In this document: piece after piece, positions 6,778 to 36,756 of the stretch
How positions within the stretch are numbered: position 1 is the first letter of the stretch
How the letters are laid out: each line of letters begins with the position of its first letter
From: Bacteroidaceae bacterium
GTDB taxonomy: Bacteria; Bacteroidota; Bacteroidia; Bacteroidales; Bacteroidaceae
Assembly (NCBI GenBank): GCA_017526905.1
Contig: JAFXQT010000036.1
Coordinates: 1 to 40,937 of the forward strand
Direction of reading: 5' to 3'
Length of the DNA: 40,937 nt
Notes under the pieces: model-generated
The model's database searches: none
What the model was told of the DNA's origin: nothing
Seen by the model: only the letters and a program-made list of their open reading frames with translations
Made by a program: the position numbers and the translations under genes

Positions 6778-7878
6778 ATGATCCATCCCGAAAACAGCGA
6801 TGAATATAAAGGTCTCACCGTGAACAGCGGCGTTGAGAACACCACCATCATCAACCCCTACCTCCAGCGCGGGCGCTTTGCCCGCCACCGCCTCAGCGTG
6901 AACGACTATGTCGAGGGCATCGTGCGCGGCAACGTCACCGTCCTCGGTCAGGCTGTCACGCTGGTCGAATCCACCAACCCCGCCCACCAGGTGGTGGCGC
7001 AGGAAGTCATCGAGAAGTGCCTGCCCTACAGCGGCAACAGCATCCGCGTGGGCATCAGCGGTGTGCCCGGAGCGGGCAAGAGCACCAGCATCGACGAGAT
7101 CGGCATTCATGTGCTCAGTGAGCATGGCGGCAAACTGGCCGTCCTGGCTATCGACCCCAGCAGCGAGCGCTCCAAAGGCTCCATCCTGGGCGATAAGACG
7201 CGCATGGAGAAACTCAGTGTGCACCCCGACTCCTTCATCCGTCCCAGTCCCTCGGCTGGCTCGCTGGGCGGCGTGGCCCGCAAGACCCGCGAGACCATCA
7301 TCCTGTGCGAGGCAGCCGGTTTCGACAAGATCTTTGTCGAGACGGTGGGCGTAGGGCAGAGCGAGACGGCCTGCCACTCCATGGTGGATTTCTTCCTGCT
7401 CATACAGCTGGCCGGAACGGGCGATGAGTTGCAAGGCATCAAGCGCGGCATCATGGAAATGGCCGACGGTATCGTCATTAACAAATGCGACGGTTCCAAC
7501 GTGGATGCCTGCCACCGTGCCGCCACCGAGTTCCGCAACGCCCTGCACCTCTTTCCGGCCCCCGACAGCGGCTGGACGCCGCAGGTGCTCTGCTACAGCG
7601 GCTTCTACGGCTTCGGCATCAAGGAGGTGTGGGACATGGTCTATGCCTACATCGACTTCGTGAAGCAGAACGGCTACTTCGACTACCGCCGCGCCGAACA
7701 GGCCAAATACTGGATGTATGAGAGCATCAACGAGCAACTCCGCAGCAGCTTCTACAACAATCCCACCATTGCCGACCTCCTGCCCGGTGCCGAATCCCAG
7801 GTGCTGGGTGGCCAGCAAACCTCCTTCATCGCAGCCAAACGCCTGCTGGACACTTACTTCCAAGGCTTGAAAGGCTGA
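6778..7878 (+). CDS. meaB: Methylmalonyl-CoA mutase-associated GTPase MeaB
   Basis: G3E-family P-loop GTPase that chaperones adenosylcobalamin loading and protection of methylmalonyl-CoA mutase in the succinate-propionate pathway. The 366 residues are near family length. Visible motifs: P-loop GVPGAGKS near residues 94-101, the DPSS segment near 127-130, Walker B-type VETVGVGQSE near 187-196, and NKCDG near 233-237 as the guanine-specificity motif. The C-terminal dimerisation arm (YWMYESINEQLRSSFYNN) is present. The mutase subunits are not in the window, so the link to propionate formation is inferred from the family. A hairpin terminator lies 280 bp downstream, after the 44-bp repeats. Confidence 0.96.
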   Translation: MIHPENSDEYKGLTVNSGVENTTIINPYLQRGRFARHRLSVNDYVEGIVRGNVTVLGQAVTLVESTNPAHQVVAQEVIEKCLPYSGNSIRVGISGVPGAGKSTSIDEIGIHVLSEHGGKLAVLAIDPSSERSKGSILGDKTRMEKLSVHPDSFIRPSPSAGSLGGVARKTRETIILCEAAGFDKIFVETVGVGQSETACHSMVDFFLLIQLAGTGDELQGIKRGIMEMADGIVINKCDGSNVDACHRAATEFRNALHLFPAPDSGWTPQVLCYSGFYGFGIKEVWDMVYAYIDFVKQNGYFDYRRAEQAKYWMYESINEQLRSSFYNNPTIADLLPGAESQVLGGQQTSFIAAKRLLDTYFQGLKG

Positions 7879-7990: not shown

Positions 7991-8122
7991 CAACATAGGT
8001 GCTCTTCGCCATCAAGGCAGTCTTGTTTAGCTATCAACATAGGTGCTCTTCGCCATCAAGGCAGTCTTGTTCAGCTATCAACATAGGTGCTCTTCGCTAT
8101 CGGCATCGATTTGTTTAGCTAT
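7991..8122 (+). repeat. 44-bp tandem repeat, three copies
   Basis: Units start at 7991, 8035 and 8079, each opening with CAACATAGGTGCTCTTCGC and ending with AGCTAT. The first two differ at one base; the third is diverged in its centre. Looser relatives (GCTAACAAGATGGGCTCGTC, GTAGTTTTTCTTCGCC) extend the pattern from about 7930 to 8145. 44 is not a multiple of three and no gene is supported. Confidence 0.9.
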
Positions 8123-8159
8123 CCAGGTAGTTTTTCTTCGCCTTTAAGCAACCCCGCTT

Positions 8160-8199
8160 TGCCCCTGACCCGACTTGTGGCCAGGGGCATTTTAATTTT
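8160..8199 (+). terminator. Intrinsic terminator
   Basis: Stem TGCCCCTG (8160-8167) with CAGGGGCA (8182-8189), 14-nt loop, followed by TTTTAATTTT. It points in the meaB direction and would end transcripts that run through the 44-bp repeats. Confidence 0.75.
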
Positions 8200-8241
8200 C
8201 GCTTTCCCCTCAAACGAGTACAAGGTTAGGCTCAAGATAAA

Positions 8242-8350
8242 TTATACGTACGTTGAACTACAATTTATACGTACGTACAACCTATAGTTATACGTACGTA
8301 CAATTGATAGTTATACGTACGTACAAATTATAGTTATACGTACGTATAAC
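8242..8350 (+). repeat. 23-bp ACGTACGT array A (five copies)
   Basis: Core ACGTACGT occurs at 8246, 8269, 8292, 8315 and 8338, an exact 23-bp period. The conserved 16 bp TTATACGTACGTACAA is symmetric except for one position pair; the 7 bp between cores vary (CCTATAG, TTGATAG, ATTATAG). The two outer copies have degenerate right flanks. It lies between convergent meaB and the C10 protease. A second array with the same unit and strand is at 34044-34174. No gene is supported; low-complexity frames read through it. Confidence 0.95.
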
Positions 8351-8532
8351 TCTATTTTGGGCTGGGGAGGAGCTTTGTTTGTGGGTAAGTATGGTTCTGT
8401 TTGAGGCTGTTATGGGCCGCGAGCGGGCCTCGGTCATGGGTGGTGCGGTGGGGAAGGTGGAAGGGGCGGAGGAGAGGTAAGATGGGGTGGAGACGAGGGG
8501 CGGATGGGGGTGCTTTTGTAGGGAGTGGGGGC

Positions 8533-8648: not shown

Positions 8649-8745
8649 TTACGAAAGCGCCCCTGGTGCGGGTGCATCAAGGGCGCAGGGTTTTGGGTGC
8701 TGCGGGCATCGTGGGGTGGGGCGATGCATGCGGTTTGTTCAGCGG

Positions 8746-8938
8746 GTATTCATCGCGGGAAAACCGCGATGCACTGTGACTCGGTGTTCTTTGTTATTCT
8801 TCACCGAGCAAAGTGTGTCTGAGGGCGGGGCGCAGCATTCTCTTATTCATCATTCGCCATTCTCTTCATCGAGCTAAGTGTTTCAGAGGGCCGGCCGCAG
8901 CATTCTCTTATTCGTCATTCGTCATTCCTCATTCCTCA
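8746..8938 (-). repeat. Composite intergenic repeat element, copy 2 (inverted)
   Basis: Reverse-complement counterpart of the element at 1130-1444: one CATCGCGG hairpin at 8751-8771, then ACTCGGTGTTCTTTGT, then the CAGCATTCTCTTATTC module twice, then TCATTCGTCATTCCTCATTC simple repeat. The final repeat unit supplies the stop codon of the C10 protease gene. Only one hairpin is present here against four in copy 1, but the middle module is duplicated. Confidence 0.85.
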
Positions 8939-11900
8939 TTCTCCCACCACAACCTTTCTGCCGTTCTGCACGTAGATGCCGCGGGTGGGCTTGCTTACGC
9001 GCTGGCCGCTGAGGTTGTAGAAGGTGGTGGAGGCGGGCTTGTTGGCTGTGGGTGCGCCCTGGATGCCGACCAGCGTGTCGGGCATGCTGATGACGAGCTT
9101 GGCGTAGTCGCAGGCAAACGGCACGATGTAGGTGCTGAAGGCGGGCACGGTGGTGGTGTAGTGCAGGGCGAAGCTGGAGCCGTCGGCGTCGAGGGTATAG
9201 ACTGACGCTTGTTGCTGCTGCATGAGGGTGCTGCGCAGGCTCACCTGCTCGCCAGTGACGCTGGCCTTGAAGGTGACGGGGATGAGGGCGTCCTGGCCGC
9301 TGAAGGTGATGGGCTGGCCGGTGAGGGTGCTGCCCGGGGTGAGGGCGATGAGGTAGGGCCGGTTGGCCTGGAGCATCTCGGCGTAGTCGAAATGCAGCAC
9401 GTCGGCATCCTCATGGTCGAACTCCATGATGAGCAGGTCCTTGCCGGTGTCGGTGGGTGCCTGTGCCCACGTCAGGTTCTTGGCCGAGCCGTCCACTTGG
9501 GCGCTGATAGTGCTGGCGGTGAAGGGCAGTGCGATGGTGTTCCAGCCGCCCTTCTCGGAGTGGGCCTGTGTGAACTGGCGGGTGTAGCTGATGTTGTTGG
9601 CGGTGAACTCGGTGGGAGTGACGAAGTCGTAGCCATCGGTCAGGGTGAGCTGTTCGGCCACGCCGCCGCGCACGATGTTGGTGGTGAGGCCTGTGGGCAC
9701 GGCATCGCCCTCGGCCAGGAAGTAGATGGTGTTGGGGTTGCCGCCGCTCACCTTGCTCACGCCGGCTTCAGACAGGTCCACTGCCACGGCGTTGTTGTCG
9801 GCCACTACCTCGGTAGTGGGCGCTGTGTACTGCTTGGTGCCGTTGGCAAAGTAGGTGGTCACGCCGGGCTGCAGCGTGCGCTGGTAAGCCCAGTCGAAGG
9901 CTATCTCGGTGTCGCCCACGTAGAGCCAGGGCACATAGGGCTGGCCGTAGCTGAGGCCGCTGATGCTGAAGGGCACGTCGGCGCTCTCTCCGGCGGGTAT
10001 GCTCACACGCAGGTAGTCGTTCTTCACGGTGGCGTAGTGCTGGCCATCCTCTGTGCCGAGGGTCATGAAGAGGAGCTCGCCGTCGAAGTCGTTGGCCGAG
10101 TTGTTTCGCACGGTCATGGTGCCGGCCAGGCTGCCATACACCACCTGGCTGGTGCCGTTGGCATAGGTGAAGGCGGTGAGAGTGAGGTCGGGCTCGGTGC
10201 TGCCGCCGGCAGTCACGTTCACGTTGACGTGGCCGATGACGTTCGTGCCGGCCTCGTCCAGACAGATGGCCAGGTCGTTGGTGCCGGTGGCCACGGGCGT
10301 GTAGTAGAAGGAGATGGTGGCCGTTTCGTTGGTCTGGATGGTGGCGCCGGTGTAGGGCACGGGGTTATCTTGGGCATCGTAGGTGGCGGCGGCATCGCGC
10401 AGGTACAGGATGCCGTAGAACTCGTCGGCGCTGTTGCGCAGCTTCACCTGCACCTCGGTGCTCAGACCGGTCTTGGCCTTGCCCACCACGCTGGAACTGA
10501 CGATGGTGAGTTTAGCCTCGGGCTGGTAGTGCAGGGTGGTGATGTTGCCGTCCTTCACGGTGACGAGGGCGTACTCCTTGTTGTGGTTGATGTTGGTGTG
10601 CAGTTCGGTCTCGGTGGAGACCTTGCTCACAGGCACGTACTTGTAGGTGCCGTCGGCCAGGCCGAGGCTCTGCAGGTCGATGCGGAAGTGGCTGCTGTAC
10701 TGGCCGTAGTTGGGGCCCAGCGTCCAGTTCTTTGTGTACCATGTGGGGTTGACGAGCTTGCCGTCGTCGGTGACCTGAGCAAAGCCCGCGTCGAAGGTGT
10801 GTGTGTCGCCGGTCAGGTTGAAGATGTCGGCCTTGAGGATGGTGCCCTCCACGTCGAAGTTGCTGGCCGTCATCTGTACTACATGGTCAGCGGTCTCGCC
10901 GTCCTGCTTCTTGATGCCGATCACGGCGTCCTGGCCGTAGCTGTAGCCGTCCTCGGTGGAGCTGGCGCCGGCACCGCTCGAGCTGCCGGGGTTGGCCACG
11001 GACAGGGCGAAGTAGCCGTTGCACCAGCCGCCCCAGCCCCAGTTGATGTGGAACAGGCCCTCGCCGTCGTAGCCGTCAACCACGAAGGCGTGGCCGCCGC
11101 CGGAGGACTGTCCGCCGTAGAGCACGGGGCGCTGGGCCTCAAGCTCGGCATACATCAGCTCCAGCCACTCGGCATAGCTGTAGTCCTCGCGGTGGATCTT
11201 GCGCGTGGTGGCGCTGTAGTCGAAGTAGTCCACCAGCGCGTCGGCCGTGGCCGTGATGGCTGCGCTGGAACCGCCGTTGGCGTTGTTGGCATAGTTCATG
11301 TGCACGGAGGCGCCGCAGGCGGCCATTAGCGTGGCCACGGCCTGACAGGCCTCGGTGTCCTCATCGTTGGCGTTGTAAGTGGGTTTCATCTTGTCCCAGG
11401 CCAGGGGAGTGCCGGCGGCCACGGCGGGCACGCTGATCTGTCCCAGACCGCCCCAGATGGTGCTGCACTGGTAGGCAGGAATCTGCTGGGTGGTGGCAGC
11501 TGGCCACTGGTGGTAGAACATGACTTGTGCCATGGCGGTGGCCACGCAGCCGGTGGCGCTGGTGCCCATGTTGAAGAACTCGGGGCAGCTGCCGTTGTAG
11601 GGAGCCTCCTGGTCCCACAGGGTGGGCAGCATCGGGGCAATGGAGTATTTGGCTTTGGCGCGCAGCGGAGCGCGTTGTGCCCCGGCAGCCGGGCGGGTGA
11701 CGGTCTTCACGTCAAGCTGGCGCATCTGGTCGGCATAGCCTGCCAGCCATGCCTTCAGGTTGTCGGGCATGCGGCTGGCGTCGAAGGTGCCGCGGTCGGC
11801 ATAGCCCAGGATGGGTGCGGTGCGGTCGTCGCCGCTCACGATGACGAAGCCATCGCCCTGGCCCACGTTGAACACGTAGAAGGCATCGGCCACGGCCTCC

Positions 11901-12067
11901 TGCAGCGATTGGCCGGCGGTGGCACTGCGCAGCTGGCGTGCGCCGTTGCTGTGGTGTTTCTGACTGAGGAACTGGCGCGCTTGCTGCATGGCAGCCTCGC
12001 GCCCTACGGGTGCTGCCCAGCACAGGGAGGCGGCGAGCAGCGCGGTGAGTAGGGTAAACTTTCGCAT
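8936..12067 (-). CDS. C10-family (streptopain-like) cysteine protease with C-terminal sorting-like tail
   Basis: Secreted cysteine protease, 1043 residues. A signal peptide (MRKFTLLTALLAASLCWA) is followed by a Spi/propeptide-like region (about 20-120) and the C10 catalytic domain (about 140-360). The nucleophile is Cys174 in TSATGCVATAMAQ and the catalytic His326 lies in SSGGGHAFVVDGYDG, followed by the conserved HINWGWGGWCNGYF. Residues about 390-960 are Ig/beta-sandwich repeats. The C-terminus (FYNLSGQRVSKPTRGIYVQN) is the tail common on Prevotella secreted proteins and resembles a type 9 secretion sorting signal; a PorE-like protein is encoded 26 kb away. Family members process host or dietary protein; the substrate here is unknown. 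A good promoter lies just upstream, so it is probably transcribed alone. Confidence 0.93.
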   Translation of the reverse strand: MRKFTLLTALLAASLCWAAPVGREAAMQQARQFLSQKHHSNGARQLRSATAGQSLQEAVADAFYVFNVGQGDGFVIVSGDDRTAPILGYADRGTFDASRMPDNLKAWLAGYADQMRQLDVKTVTRPAAGAQRAPLRAKAKYSIAPMLPTLWDQEAPYNGSCPEFFNMGTSATGCVATAMAQVMFYHQWPAATTQQIPAYQCSTIWGGLGQISVPAVAAGTPLAWDKMKPTYNANDEDTEACQAVATLMAACGASVHMNYANNANGGSSAAITATADALVDYFDYSATTRKIHREDYSYAEWLELMYAELEAQRPVLYGGQSSGGGHAFVVDGYDGEGLFHINWGWGGWCNGYFALSVANPGSSSGAGASSTEDGYSYGQDAVIGIKKQDGETADHVVQMTASNFDVEGTILKADIFNLTGDTHTFDAGFAQVTDDGKLVNPTWYTKNWTLGPNYGQYSSHFRIDLQSLGLADGTYKYVPVSKVSTETELHTNINHNKEYALVTVKDGNITTLHYQPEAKLTIVSSSVVGKAKTGLSTEVQVKLRNSADEFYGILYLRDAAATYDAQDNPVPYTGATIQTNETATISFYYTPVATGTNDLAICLDEAGTNVIGHVNVNVTAGGSTEPDLTLTAFTYANGTSQVVYGSLAGTMTVRNNSANDFDGELLFMTLGTEDGQHYATVKNDYLRVSIPAGESADVPFSISGLSYGQPYVPWLYVGDTEIAFDWAYQRTLQPGVTTYFANGTKQYTAPTTEVVADNNAVAVDLSEAGVSKVSGGNPNTIYFLAEGDAVPTGLTTNIVRGGVAEQLTLTDGYDFVTPTEFTANNISYTRQFTQAHSEKGGWNTIALPFTASTISAQVDGSAKNLTWAQAPTDTGKDLLIMEFDHEDADVLHFDYAEMLQANRPYLIALTPGSTLTGQPITFSGQDALIPVTFKASVTGEQVSLRSTLMQQQQASVYTLDADGSSFALHYTTTVPAFSTYIVPFACDYAKLVISMPDTLVGIQGAPTANKPASTTFYNLSGQRVSKPTRGIYVQNGRKVVVGE

Positions 12068-27014: not shown

Positions 27015-27671
27015 ATGGAGCAAGATACCAATCAGTCTAACACATCTCGCTCACTCGCTTTCTTGGAGGGTCAAGCGTCCCTTCTTGAATGGTCAAGCGT
27101 CCCTTCGGGCCGAGCGCAGGCCGAGCGCGAGGGGACGGGGGAAGAGCCTTTCCCTTCTTTAGGGGCGTCCGGGGTGTCTGCCCCTCTCTCCTTGATTGCC
27201 GCCGTGGCTGCAAATGGTGCCATTGGCTTTGAGAACAAGCTTTTGTACTGGTTGCCCAACGACCTGAAGCGCTTCAAGGCACTCACCACGGGGCACACCA
27301 TCGTGATGGGGCGCCGCACGTTCGAGTCGCTGCCTAAGGGCGCGTTGCCCAATCGCAGAAATGTCGTGCTGTCAAGAAATGCCGATTTCATCGCAGCAGG
27401 GGCCGAGGTTTATCCCTCGCTCGAAGCCGCGTTGGACACGTGTGGCGCCGATGAAGAGGTGTATGTAATTGGAGGGGCCAGCATCTATGCGCAGGCGTTG
27501 CCCTTTGCCCGGCGGCTGTGCCTGACGCTTGTACACGACACTCCCGCCGCTGCCGATGCCTTCTTCCCGTGGCTCAACCCGTCCGATTGGCGCGTGGAGA
27601 ACGAGGAAAGGCACAGCACCGATGAGCGCCATGCCTTTAATTACACCTTTATTGATTACGTGCGCGCGTGA
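27015..27671 (+). CDS. folA: Dihydrofolate reductase with a doubtful N-terminal extension
   Basis: NADPH-dependent reduction of dihydrofolate to tetrahydrofolate. The enzyme core starts near residue 58 (SLIAAVAANGAIGFENKLLY) and shows the standard landmarks: WLPNDLKRFKALT (substrate-binding Asp), VMGRRTFESLP, RRNVVLSRN and VYVIGGASIYAQALP. From ATG 27015 the protein has 218 residues, about 55 more than a normal DHFR. The extra N-terminus is low-complexity and contains a 16-bp direct repeat (GGTCAAGCGTCCCTTC at 27069-27084 and 27091-27106), so it looks like repeat-derived DNA. A GTG at 27174 (codon 54) would give VSAPLSLIAAV and a normal 165-residue enzyme; I think that start is at least as likely. 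A terminator follows. Confidence 0.93.
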   Translation: MEQDTNQSNTSRSLAFLEGQASLLEWSSVPSGRAQAEREGTGEEPFPSLGASGVSAPLSLIAAVAANGAIGFENKLLYWLPNDLKRFKALTTGHTIVMGRRTFESLPKGALPNRRNVVLSRNADFIAAGAEVYPSLEAALDTCGADEEVYVIGGASIYAQALPFARRLCLTLVHDTPAAADAFFPWLNPSDWRVENEERHSTDERHAFNYTFIDYVRA

Positions 27672-32661: not shown

Positions 32662-33681
32662 TCAGAAGATTACTTTAGTGCCCTCGCTCAGTTTCTGATA
32701 GCCTTCGGTCACTACGCGTGCCCCCTCGGTCAGGCCGTTGGCCTGCACGCGGTTGCCCACCGTCTGGCCCAGCGTCACGGCCGTGCGGTGTGCGGTGCTG
32801 TCGGCGCCTATGCTCCACACAAAGAGCGAGCCGTCGGCACGGCGCTGCACGGCGGTGAGCGGCAGCGTGAGCATAGGTGTGGCGGGGCCTTGTGTGTCCA
32901 GGCTCACCTTGGCCACCATGCCCGGCAGCAAAGCCCGGTCCTTGTTATCCACACTCACGCGCACGTCGTAGGTGTGTGTGAGGGCATCGGCCTGCACCCC
33001 TTTCTCGATCCGTTGGCCTGCGAAGTCGCGGCCAATGGCTTCCACCTGGATGAGCGATCGTGTTTGCGGGGTGATAGCCGTCATGTCGGCCTCGGGCACC
33101 GAGAAGCGCACCTTGACCGAGCCCACGTTCAGGATGGTGACCACGGCCTGCGAGGGCATGGCCGTTTCGCCGGCCTTCACGCTTTGCCGGCCCACCACGC
33201 CGCTCACGGGAGCCGTGAGCCTGCAGTCGGCCACGTTCTTCTTGGCAATGGCCAGTTGCGAGTGCGCCTGCGCCACTTTGCTCTGAATTTCCACCCACTG
33301 CGCCTCGGTGAGCGAGCCCCGTTCGTGCAGCAGCTGATAGCGCTTCAGCGCGTCCTCGGCCTGGTTCACGGCAGCCTGAGCCCCTTGCAGCAGGTTGCGG
33401 GCCTGGGTGTCGTCCATCTCGGCGATGAGTTGTCCGCGGCTCACGTTCTGTCCTTCGCTCACGGCCACTCGGCGCACGGTGCCCATGGTGGTGAAGCTGA
33501 CGGCCGTGGCGGTTGCTTCCTCCACCACGCCCACATAGGTGTGGCTCTGGGCGCTGCTGTTCTGTCCCACCACTTCCGTTCGCACGCGGGTGGGCGCTTT
33601 CTGGCGTTGTTCTTGCTTGGTGCCGCAAGCGGCGAGCAGCAGTGTGCCCGTGGCGGCCATCAGTAAAGTACGTATGTTCAT
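32662..33681 (-). CDS. RND efflux periplasmic adaptor lipoprotein
   Basis: Membrane-fusion protein connecting the RND permease to TolC. ATG 33681 starts a lipoprotein signal, MNIRTLLMAATGTLLLAAC, with the lipid-modified Cys19 followed by GTKQEQRQK; the longer frame to 33840 is not used because it hides this signal. 339 residues. Layout: beta-barrel/lipoyl half (VGVVEEATATAVSFTTMGTV), an alpha-helical hairpin near 90-150 (LLQGAQAAVNQAEDALKRYQ), second lipoyl half (CRLTAPVSGVVGRQSVKAGE), beta-barrel and a C-terminal membrane-proximal domain (GNRVQANGLTEGARVVTEGY). First gene of the adaptor-permease-TolC operon. A weak -7 box GACCTTTG (33704-33711, minus strand) lies about 22 bp upstream. Confidence 0.95.
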   Translation of the reverse strand: MNIRTLLMAATGTLLLAACGTKQEQRQKAPTRVRTEVVGQNSSAQSHTYVGVVEEATATAVSFTTMGTVRRVAVSEGQNVSRGQLIAEMDDTQARNLLQGAQAAVNQAEDALKRYQLLHERGSLTEAQWVEIQSKVAQAHSQLAIAKKNVADCRLTAPVSGVVGRQSVKAGETAMPSQAVVTILNVGSVKVRFSVPEADMTAITPQTRSLIQVEAIGRDFAGQRIEKGVQADALTHTYDVRVSVDNKDRALLPGMVAKVSLDTQGPATPMLTLPLTAVQRRADGSLFVWSIGADSTAHRTAVTLGQTVGNRVQANGLTEGARVVTEGYQKLSEGTKVIF

Positions 33682-33928
33682 TTTTGTGTTCGGATTTTGG
33701 GCGCAAAGGTCGGAAAAAAGCGGGAAACGGCCTTGTCCTATAGGGTGGAAAATGGCCTCAGAAATTCCTTTTTTCGCCTTTCCTGCCGCCATAGTAGCAC
33801 TTTTAGACGCATCTGCGCCCCTCTCCGGGCCGCACAGCAAACTCCTGCCGTGCGTCAGAAATGGCCGTCGGTGCGTGGGCGAGAGATGCCCGTGGGCGCT
33901 GTGCTGCAGCGTGCTTTTGGTCGTGGCA

Positions 33929-33994
33929 GCGCTAAGAGGTAGGAACCGAGGCGTTAAGAGGTAGGAACCGAGGCGTTAAAAGGTAGGGGCAGAA
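33929..33994 (+). repeat. 22-bp tandem repeat, three copies
   Basis: GCGYTAAGAGGTAGGAACCG plus AG at 33929-33950 and 33951-33972, with a diverged third unit to 33994. It lies upstream of the efflux operon, 50 bp before the second 23-bp array. The rest of 33712-33928 shows no gene or clear signal. Confidence 0.85.
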
Positions 33995-34043: not shown

Positions 34044-34174
34044 TTGAACGTACGTACAAATATAAATTATACGTACGTACAACTACATGTTATACGTACG
34101 TACAACTATATGTTATACGTACGTACAACTATATGTTATACGTACGTACAATTATAAGTTATACGTACGTACAA
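34044..34174 (+). repeat. 23-bp ACGTACGT array B (six copies)
   Basis: Cores at 34048, 34071, 34094, 34117, 34140 and 34163, again exactly 23 bp apart. Consensus TTATACGTACGTACAA plus 7 variable bases (CTACATG, CTATATG twice, TTATAAG). The first copy has a degenerate left flank (TTGA). Same unit, period and strand as array A at 8242-8350. It sits between the 3' end of the DUF349 gene and the upstream region of the efflux operon, about 360 bp from the adaptor start. Confidence 0.95.
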
Positions 34175-34345
34175 TTTCTTTTGAGGTCGGGGATGTATCA
34201 GAATGGGGCAGGTGTAGCGAGCGTTTGTGGCCTGGTTATTTGATGTTTGGGTCGTGGTTAGCTGGCTGATGGGGTAGCTGCAGGTTCGTTGTTACTCGGC
34301 TATTGGTCACCGATGGTTCGGCGGCAGTTGGCCGTAAGGATACGA

Positions 34346-34575: not shown

Positions 34576-36630
34576 TTACTCGGCAGCCTCGGCAGCGGGA
34601 GCAGCTTCGGCCTCGGCAGCGGAAGCCTCGGCGGCAGGTGCCTCGGTGGCGGGGGCAGCAGCAGGTGCTGCAGCGGGCTGCTCTGAGGCGGGTGCCTCGG
34701 CAGGTGCTTCGGCTGCTTTCTCCTCGGCCTTGGGTGCGCGCATCTCGGTCTCCACGGCCTTGATCTTCTGCTTGAGCAGTTCCAGCTCGCCGTGCAGTTT
34801 CTCCACCTTCTTGTTCATCTCGGCCACGAGGCTGTTGCCGCTCTTGCTCTTGGCGTTGAGGAAGTTGAGGTTGGTTTCGTAGTTCTGCAGTTCGGCCTTC
34901 TGCTGGTCGTAGATGCGCATAAGGCGTTCGCGCTCGCGGCTGAGTGCGTTGCCGCCCTGGTCGATGGCTTTCTTGATGCTCTTCTGGAAGCCTTCCAGGC
35001 GGCGTCGTGCCTGGCTCTGGCCAAACTCCTTGTAGAGGCGGTCGGCCAGTTCGCGATATTCGGCATAGAGCTTGTCCTTGTCGCGGAAGGGCACGTGGCC
35101 GGTTTCGTTCCACTGCTGCTGCAGGTCGCGCACCTTGTCGATGGTGGCGTTGGCGGTGTCCTGGGCCAGCTCGCGCAGCTGGTCGATGATGCTGCGCTTG
35201 GTTTGCAGGTTGGCTTTCTCCTCGGCACGAGTGTCGGCGTTGGCCGCGTTCTTGGCCTCGAAGAACTTGTCGCAGGCGGCCGAGAAGCGTTTCCACAACT
35301 GCTCGCTATACTTGCGTGGCACGGCGCCGATGGCCTTCCACTGCTTTTGCAGTTCGATGAGCTTGTCGCTGGTCTTGCGCCACTCGGTGCTGTCCTGCAG
35401 GGCCTCAGCCTCGTCGGCCAGGCGGCGCTTGGCCTCGAGGTTGCTGGCCTGCTCGTCCTTGATGTTCTTGAAGAAGTCGGCCTTGGCGGTGAAGAAGCGG
35501 TCGCAGGCCACACGGAAGCGGTCGAACACGCGCTGGTTCATCTTTTGGGGTGCGAAGCCGATGGTCTTCCACTCGGCCTGTAGTGCCAGCACCTCCTTGG
35601 TCTTCTCGTCCCATGCGGCAAAGGTGTTGAGTCCTTCGAGGCTGATGTCCTCGGCGCGCTCGCACAGTTCGGTTTTCTTTTGCAGGTTCTCCTCCTCGCG
35701 GGCCTTGATGGCTTCGAAGTGTTCCTGGTGGCGCTTGTTTATCACGGTGCTTGCGGCCTTGAAGCGCTCCCAGATGCTGTCGCGCAGGTCCTTGGCCACG
35801 GGGCCGATTTCCTTGTAGTCGGCGTGCAGGGCCTGCAGCTTGTTGAATGCTGTGATGATATCGGTCTCGTCGGCCAGCTTCTCGGCGGCCTCGATGAGTC
35901 GTGTCTTGGCCTCGAGGTTCTTCTTGAAGTCGTACTCGCGGGCCTCGATGTGCAGTTTGAGCTGATCGTAGAACTGCTCCACGTAGAGCTGGTAGTTTTT
36001 CCAGATCTCGGTGGCTTTCTCGGCGGGCACGGAGCCTATCTCCTTCCATTTGGCCTGCAGCTGCTTGAACTCGTCGAAGTGGATGTTGGCCTCTTCGGGC
36101 GATGCAGCCAGTTCCTTGATGCGGTCGATGATGCTTTGTTTCTGGTTGAGATTGTCGGTTTTCTGTTGTTCCTGTGCCTCGGCCAGTTCGGCTCGACGGG
36201 CCCGGATGGCAGCCAGTGCCGATTTGAAGTTCTCCTCGGCCACGTCGATCTCGGGCTTGTACTGCTCAGGGTCGCCACCAGCCTCGATGTAGGCGTTGCG
36301 TGCGGCCAGCTGGTCGGCGCGGTGCAGCTTGTAGAACACCTGCTTGAGCAGATCGATCTCGGCCTTTTCGCCTCCTTGGCCTTCGGCGGTGATGGCCTGT
36401 AGGCGTTCCACCACTTGTTCTTTGGTGGTGTAGATAACCTTTTCGGCCTCCTCGGCTTCAGCTTCGGCCTGTGGTTCCGGTGCCTGTGCGGCGGGTTCGT
36501 CGGCCGGCTTTTCAGCGCTGGCGATGGTCTCTTCAGCCTGCGTCTCAGGTGTGGGCGCAGGTGCTGTCTGTACTTCTGCGGCCTGTGCCTCTACTTCGGG
36601 GGTAGGCTGCAGCTCGTTGGTTTCAGTCAT
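34576..36630 (-). CDS. DUF349 repeat protein, coiled-coil
   Basis: Cytosolic protein of unknown function, typical of Bacteroidota. ATG 36630 (MTETNELQPTPEVEAQAAEV) is preferred to the 36654 start because the extra eight codons add nothing. 684 residues: an acidic Ala/Pro/Glu-rich N-terminal tail (1-75), then at least five DUF349 units of about 70-75 residues, each containing a W-K-x-I/T-G-x-V/A-P core (KWKEIGSVPAEKATEIW, QWKAIGAVPRKYSEQLW, QWNETGHVPFRDKDKLY), a coiled coil near 590-640 (LHGELELLKQKIKAVETEM), and an Ala/Pro/Glu-rich C-terminal tail. Regularly spaced tryptophans suggest a helical rod. A weak -7-like TTAATTTG (36683-36690, minus strand) lies about 53 bp upstream. Family known, role not. 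Confidence 0.92.
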   Translation of the reverse strand: MTETNELQPTPEVEAQAAEVQTAPAPTPETQAEETIASAEKPADEPAAQAPEPQAEAEAEEAEKVIYTTKEQVVERLQAITAEGQGGEKAEIDLLKQVFYKLHRADQLAARNAYIEAGGDPEQYKPEIDVAEENFKSALAAIRARRAELAEAQEQQKTDNLNQKQSIIDRIKELAASPEEANIHFDEFKQLQAKWKEIGSVPAEKATEIWKNYQLYVEQFYDQLKLHIEAREYDFKKNLEAKTRLIEAAEKLADETDIITAFNKLQALHADYKEIGPVAKDLRDSIWERFKAASTVINKRHQEHFEAIKAREEENLQKKTELCERAEDISLEGLNTFAAWDEKTKEVLALQAEWKTIGFAPQKMNQRVFDRFRVACDRFFTAKADFFKNIKDEQASNLEAKRRLADEAEALQDSTEWRKTSDKLIELQKQWKAIGAVPRKYSEQLWKRFSAACDKFFEAKNAANADTRAEEKANLQTKRSIIDQLRELAQDTANATIDKVRDLQQQWNETGHVPFRDKDKLYAEYRELADRLYKEFGQSQARRRLEGFQKSIKKAIDQGGNALSRERERLMRIYDQQKAELQNYETNLNFLNAKSKSGNSLVAEMNKKVEKLHGELELLKQKIKAVETEMRAPKAEEKAAEAPAEAPASEQPAAAPAAAPATEAPAAEASAAEAEAAPAAEAAE

Positions 36631-36756
36631 ACTTTTAGTTGTTAGTGGAGCCAATGGGGCCCTGTTTGCAAATAAAACGCTGCAAATTAAGGTAAAAAAA
36701 AGTTTCCCGCCTAATGTTTTGGCATAAAAATGGGTTTCGGTCTTCGTTTTTCTGGT

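Follow-up and report, generated by a model that had tools for sequence, protein, structure and literature searches.

Array A, a run of five near-palindromic sites repeated every 23 bp, is probably one of 13 dispersed copies of an array bound by a HU-HIG protein that the same genome encodes. The window analysed here, a stretch of 40,937 bp, is the entire contig C73 of the source genome (G000, a MAG whose 104 contigs add up to 2.80 Mb, with a completeness of 79%). Another copy of the array, on contig C98, stops 154 bp short of the ATG of a gene (C98:1886-2368) whose product is a HU-HIG protein (PF18291; 81.6 bits, cut-off 26.2), and related genomes often carry arrays, mostly with cores that differ from that of G000, upstream of their own HU-HIG genes.

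Two arrays in the window

The ACGTACGT cores of array A begin at positions 8246, 8269, 8292, 8315 and 8338, every step being 23 bp, and the exact register of five near-palindromic sites given in the preliminary description is borne out. With up to three mismatches allowed, TTATACGTACGTACAA has 22 matches in the window, corresponding to 11 sites read on both strands, which belong to array A and to a second array, array B (Table 1); shuffled sequences gave a mean of 0.07 matches (100 shuffles). Array B, 11 arrays on other contigs and the conserved inverted flanks described below go beyond what had been seen in array A. The genes enclosing array A, which encode a MeaB GTPase and a C10 peptidase, are convergent. 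The hairpin lying between MeaB and the array is missing from the list of the terminator scan, its loop being longer than the scan allows.

Table 1. Arrays, array ends and neighbouring features in the window.
Feature	Position	Strand	Remarks
MeaB GTPase, left neighbour of array A	6778-7878	+	PF03308, 333 bits; ends at 7878
Hairpin TGCCCCTG/CAGGGGCA, then T-rich tail, between MeaB and array A	8160-8199	+	by eye
Array A, left inverted end	8222-8241	+	GGTTAGGCTCAAGATAAA-type; genome consensus ACCTCAAANGAAA
Array A, five TTATACGTACGTACAA-type 16-mers at 23-bp pitch	8242-8349	+	8242-8257, 8265-8280, 8288-8303, 8311-8326, 8334-8349
Array A, right inverted end, degenerate	8350-8372	-	
C10 peptidase with inhibitor I69 domain, right neighbour of array A	8936-12067	-	ends at 8936
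HlyD-type adaptor, left neighbour of array B	32662-33840	-	
Array B, six sites at 23-bp pitch	34044-34174	+	
Array B, right inverted end	34175-34193	-	TTTCTTTTGAGGTCGGGG-type
DUF349 protein, right neighbour of array B	34576-36654	-	

Thirteen arrays in the source genome

Across G000, the pattern of two cores 23 bp apart has 52 forward matches. In total, the genome holds 13 arrays of 4-6 sites each (66 cores) spread over 11 contigs, and their 53 intervals include a single exception to 23 bp, an interval of 22 bp on C83. The sites are nearly confined to these arrays: allowing up to two mismatches, TTRTACGTACGTAYAA has 66 matches in G000 and, among the matches listed, 64 of the 66 fall within the 13 arrays. 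A unit occurring at random throughout the genome, with spacers as conserved as the cores, had been named beforehand as the sign of a plain tandem repeat; this is not what was found, the cores being more conserved than the spacers. On the other hand, the 7-nt spacers do not vary freely, as had been described, but hold ~4.8 of 14 bits (n = 52, whole genome), and their consensus, near CTANTAG, is itself a dyad. Since this dyad lies between the cores, the array offers one dyad per ~11.5 bp.

The array ends are also conserved. The inverted consensus ACCTCAAANGAAA is common to the 26 pooled ends, and a weaker conservation of the flanks continues out to position -80 or so; A recurs at -8, -30, -52 and -74, i.e., in a 22-bp phase, and there is no sharp end. 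The copies align pairwise over ~90-165 bp with roughly 70-95% identity (among the matches listed), their spacers come in similar order, and some adjacent units are identical, which indicates that local duplication occurs. The identical pitch at 13 loci, the near confinement of the sites to arrays, the inverted flanks and the copy upstream of a HU-HIG gene, with its analogues in relatives, argue for a putative binding-site array over a slipped repeat, the reading already preferred in the preliminary description.

As to genomic context, convergent genes enclose seven of the 13 arrays (for two of these, on C82 and C95, one of the neighbours lacks a Pfam hit) and codirectional genes enclose six, while no array stands between divergent genes. 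The convergent position pointed out for array A is correct for that array and does not hold as a rule. The lack of divergent contexts (0.75^13 = 0.024) would fit RNA-level elements of 3′ regions, such as terminators or mRNA-stabilising hairpins; moreover, a hairpin is possible from each spacer dyad, and the terminator scan marks minus-strand hairpins in arrays A and B. The hairpins marked contain 5 G-C pairs among 18-19 and are followed by weak T tails, and their counts are 3 and 2 vs shuffle means of 1.2 and 1.0. The Rfam matches on the array concern families of eukaryotic miRNAs and one family of viral UTRs, all below the gathering scores (best 46 bits vs 101). We consider an RNA-level function very unlikely, given that the polarity of the sites agrees with transcription in three of the six codirectional arrays and disagrees in the other three, that relatives do have arrays between divergent genes (gene directions taken partly from ORFs alone), and that flanks of the same element are no more complementary than flanks of different elements over the last 30 bases (p = 0.85 in G000, p = 0.12 in G013). 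On the same complementarity test, a stem formed by pairing between left and right flanks was discarded.

The Pfam scan of the 40 ORFs flanking the 13 arrays revealed neither a common theme among the neighbours nor a replication gene or initiator. The parS consensus, TGTTNCACGTGAAACA, has no match in the window with up to three mismatches; identification of the array as iterons or parS, one of the options first considered, finds no support in these results. As to conserved neighbours, a check that had also been suggested, none of 19 MeaB loci of relatives has a 23-bp array, and a conserved position beside this gene was discarded, although 22-bp repeats are present elsewhere in the fetched stretch in three of the 19.

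Occurrence of the pattern in other genomes

A scan of the genome and its relatives for cores 23 bp apart, as originally suggested, recovers the 13 arrays of G000 and little else: of 60 further genomes, 36 of them congeneric, G007 alone carries the pair pattern, which is absent from 35 of the 36 congeneric genomes. In GTDB contigs, a stricter pattern occurs only in Candidatus Bacteroides merdigallinarum and an uncultured Mediterranea, in a comparison from which close records of the window's genome may be left out. The flanks of the ACGTACGT pairs in G007 and Mediterranea differ from the flanks in G000, and relatives show no enrichment of the end pattern ACCTCAAANNAAATT. A viral origin was rejected, as no viral contig carries the stricter pattern and similar phage DNA was not found. 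HU-HIG relatives do sit on three phage records.

Arrays with other cores in relatives

A sample of 40 stretches (0.8 Mb) from six genomes of the same genus revealed arrays built on different cores. G016 has a CTCTATAGAG core at pitch 22, and G013 has a TGAAAAT-NN-ATTTTCA core at pitch 21 together with a CATGTACATG core at pitch 22, while intergenic TCTAGA-type arrays of pitch 18 are found in G067 (L054:12933) and G013 (L077:9972). More arrays of pitch 22, with cores present repeatedly in the genome concerned, were noticed in G011 (L061, L065, L067 and L069; e.g., ACCCTGCA) and G016 (L071, L073 and L075; e.g., AATTAGG-type or TACGACCGTA). The G013 pattern is matched 201 times on the forward strand of its own genome, from which we estimate ~67 arrays (three matches per complete array); on both strands it has 8 matches in G071, 4 in G075 and 4 in G069, and none in the other 57 genomes. 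Four hairpins are present in 14 of the 16 G013 arrays that were read and two in another, the last array being truncated by a contig end; the arrays of G069, G071 and G075 are longer than two hairpins. The G013 elements are built like those of G000, with inverted ends and A-tracts every 22 bp around the array. As for the G016 pattern, its 8 forward matches lie at five places of G016, and the other 60 genomes have none.

Over pitches of 12-40, three-unit arrays with a lagged identity of 75% or more are commonest in this sample at pitch 22 (23 arrays), followed by pitch 21 (5 arrays), each of the other pitches being represented by at most 4. This distribution, the stronger conservation of cores than of spacers and the enrichment upstream of HU-HIG genes reported below speak against a plain, functionless intergenic minisatellite, which we regard as extremely improbable even though tandem repeats are frequent in this genus and local duplication has produced some identical neighbouring units.

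Arrays upstream of HU-HIG genes

The gene kind common to array flanks in G013, G071 and G075 is a HU-HIG gene with a C-terminal winged-helix-like part. The relationship of HU-HIG to HU and IHF comes from profile matches, which include solved IHF and HU structures. Two protein queries, of the wHTH type and of the G000 type, gave matches in 39 and 49, respectively, of 61 genomes, and the best 30 loci of each, one per genome, were considered; all 30 were used for the G000 type and 26 for the wHTH type, four partial matches (L174, L176, L178 and L179) being dropped. Arrays were defined as three units with a lagged identity of at least 0.65 at a lag of 20-24, at most 400 bp from the gene, a lag window chosen after arrays had been seen.

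With the wHTH type, arrays are present upstream of 18 of the 26 genes, all at pitch 21, and downstream of 1 of 26 (p = 1e-6). The G000 type has them upstream in 13 of 30 cases (twelve at pitch 22, and G000 itself at 23) and downstream in 2 of 30 (p = 0.002), so that the pooled figures are 31/56 upstream vs 3/56 downstream. The other lag windows gave, for the 26 wHTH-type and the 30 G000-type loci, 1 and 6 arrays at lags 15-19, 1 and 0 at 25-29, and none at 30-34. The base rate was taken from ORFs of the six-genome sample, called mechanically (at least 150 aa, longest kept): arrays lie upstream of 27/457 and downstream of 35/481, where the figure of 27 also counts dispersed arrays and one HU-HIG gene, and the difference between 31/56 and 27/457 is highly significant (p = 7e-19). 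MeaB genes, used as a control, have arrays upstream in 1/19 and downstream in 0/18 cases. Similarly, named records of Bacteroides, Parabacteroides and Phocaeicola yielded 18 HU-HIG matches at 16 loci, and the 12 loci read have 8 arrays upstream and none downstream (p = 0.001).

The consensus units exceed shuffled ones in dyad symmetry (combined p of 8e-9, 6e-4 and 4e-3). In a Mantel test whose set takes in the weak arrays L158, L164 and L166, similarity between proteins correlates with similarity between motifs for the wHTH type (rho 0.31, p = 0.0015, n = 22); for the G000 type, rho is 0.11 (p = 0.22) and the Pearson coefficient 0.29 (p = 0.019), with n = 14, a set that leaves G000 itself aside because of its pitch of 23. 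In about half of the HU-HIG genes tested, an upstream array was not found. Among the named records, two of the four loci without arrays adjoin DUF4248 and smalltalk genes, and perhaps represent another subtype.

Dispersed cores and HU-HIG promoter cores

Only one of the 13 arrays of G000 adjoins a HU-HIG gene. The core of the dispersed arrays equals a HU-HIG promoter core in 9 of the 13 species examined, as judged from incomplete genomes and a subset of the HU-HIG loci. The match holds for G000, G013, G071 and G075. In G016, one of nine HU-HIG loci has a CTCTATAGAG-type array, with the full CTCTATAGAG in only one of its three sites, and this locus was read after the dispersed arrays were known. 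Starting from the promoters, the motif of G033 occurs at 13 further places in its own genome and in none of 60 others, and that of G070 recurs at 2 places. The Parabacteroides distasonis promoter array is found at 14 places in 8 Parabacteroides records and that of B. finegoldii at 5 places in 5 records, the own copy included in both counts; the best place in each record has no annotated feature beneath it. These records are labelled as plasmids and were taken as pieces of chromosome, because they carry genes such as rpsL, valine--tRNA ligase and pnp. On the other hand, the G017 promoter motif has an exact match at its own gene only; a pitch-21 array is present at each of the three HU-HIG promoters read in G069, but the dispersed ATTTTCA core is missing from all three; the TCTAGA core of G067 has no promoter match among five HU-HIG loci, nor has the ACCCTGCA core of G011 at one HU-HIG locus.

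Comparison with known systems

REP/BIME elements are species-specific, dispersed palindromes associated with RAYT proteins, and copies lie beside the gene of the cognate protein. The G000 arrays resemble them in being dispersed, species-specific and palindromic, with one copy beside a candidate cognate gene, but the protein is a HU-HIG and not a Y1 transposase, and the arrays keep a fixed phase of 21-23 bp. A RAYT was sought and discarded, G000 (79% complete) having no PF01797 match. IHF recognises single, asymmetric sites, HU binds largely without sequence specificity, and both proteins bend DNA. HU-HIG shares a related fold with them according to the profiles; the arrays described here are instead phased palindromes with a core private to each species. 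Burroughs and co-workers reportedly described, in Cell Cycle in 2017, HU-HIG expansions in Bacteroidetes, which belong to the same Pfam family PF18291, predicting a role in the recognition of invasive DNA or in chromosome partition and giving no DNA target. In the open-licence literature, we found no report of arrays bound by HU-HIG proteins.

The nearest published element, likened by unit length and layout since the unit sequence is absent from the main text, is BrickBuilt of Porphyromonas gingivalis, a 23-nt tandem unit with a conserved and a variable half, present in ~19 nearly species-specific intergenic copies (PMC4596501). Like BrickBuilt, the G000 arrays consist of a tandem unit of ~23 nt in dispersed intergenic copies. 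BrickBuilt has up to 22.8 repeats, a leader and tail of up to ~300 nt and IS5-like TIRs, with irregular target-site duplications, and is interpreted as a MITE; no protein is linked to it in the sections of the paper covered here (PMC4596501). By eye, the G000 inverted ends ACCTCAAANGAAA differ from the BrickBuilt TIR GAGACCTTTGCA (Table 2 of PMC4596501). BrickBuilt_14 sits between PGN_0871 (-) and PGN_0872 (+), the latter encoding a DNA-binding protein of PF00216 (PMC4596501). Furthermore, BrickBuilt_7 adjoins scpA, which encodes methylmalonyl-CoA mutase (PMC4596501); in G000, MeaB and methylmalonyl-CoA mutase (C98:4-1254), partners in the same pathway, each adjoin an array, which may be due to chance.

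The BrickBuilt precedent, the near restriction of the pattern to one species and the inverted ends, spacer order and extended similarity shared by the 13 copies are what would be expected of a MITE- or REP-like repeat copied by a transposase, the array being an internal minisatellite and the HU-HIG neighbour either incidental or served by sites that the repeat carries along. Such an origin is, in our opinion, unlikely. A consistent target-site duplication was not found in 13 G000 and 14 G013 elements, G016, like the incomplete G000, has no PF01797 transposase (the one family covered), and conservation of the flanks fades in a 22-bp phase instead of ending sharply. A copied repeat also leaves unaccounted for the arrays of different core sequence that precede HU-HIG genes.

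A possible role for the arrays

The DNA itself shows the arrays with their common core, their location upstream of the gene, a dependence of pitch on protein subtype (21 or 22-23 bp) and a change of core from species to species. From these features we infer that the HU-HIG protein binds the array, and likewise its mode of binding, autoregulation and any role of array A. The protein, probably a dimer, would occupy successive dyads and thereby coat or wrap 85-131 bp of array DNA. The C98 copy would act as an autoregulatory operator, and the operator array named among the initial options would fit this one copy. The other 12, array A included, may serve as additional docking sites, with an effect on local chromosome shape or on the expression of neighbouring genes. 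For array A, an architectural role seems likelier than control of the MeaB or C10 peptidase gene, because both genes end towards the array, beyond a terminator-like hairpin. The copies may have spread as mobile units, which would be compatible with HU-HIG binding.

A broader and rather doubtful extension, which we put forward tentatively, is that HU-HIG proteins are architectural proteins with private codes throughout Bacteroidales: the array at the own promoter would set the level of the protein, and the same code at few to tens of intergenic sites would wrap or loop the chromosome, with a pitch fixed by subtype and a core rewritten in each species, so that the arrays mark own DNA. If binding is confirmed, a large family of HU-like proteins of Bacteroidota would gain a DNA target readable from sequence, and hitherto unexplained intergenic minisatellites would become linked to a protein. 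Paralogues appear to use different cores at equal pitch, thus offering a natural series on how specificity is gained and changed in HU/IHF-type proteins. Direct testing is feasible, since the cultured gut species P. distasonis and B. finegoldii carry examples.

Additional repeats in the window and in related records

Further repeats of 22 or 44 bp occur in the window at 33929-33987, where the repeat stops 57 bp short of array B, at 27060-27106 and at 7991-8123; they are possibly degenerate arrays of other codes. A longer repeat containing GCATCGCGG...CCGCGATGAATACC has inverted copies, 86% alike, at 1206-1324 and ~8744-8862. ARAGORN calls a tRNA-Val (gac) at 11033-11110, within the C10 peptidase frame and on the same strand, which is possibly a false call. 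In G007 (L016 and L017) and Mediterranea (L030), the ACGTACGT pairs at 23 bp are part of another dispersed element, which has CGTTCA repeats next to it; CGTTCA cores are also present upstream of two HU-HIG genes of G069. Finally, a contig of Candidatus Bacteroides merdigallinarum (DXBX01000054.1; L029:5891-6140) carries five ACGTACGT followed by six AGATGTACATCT in one 23-bp register, and this two-core array sits between a convergent tRNA synthetase gene and mutL-like gene.
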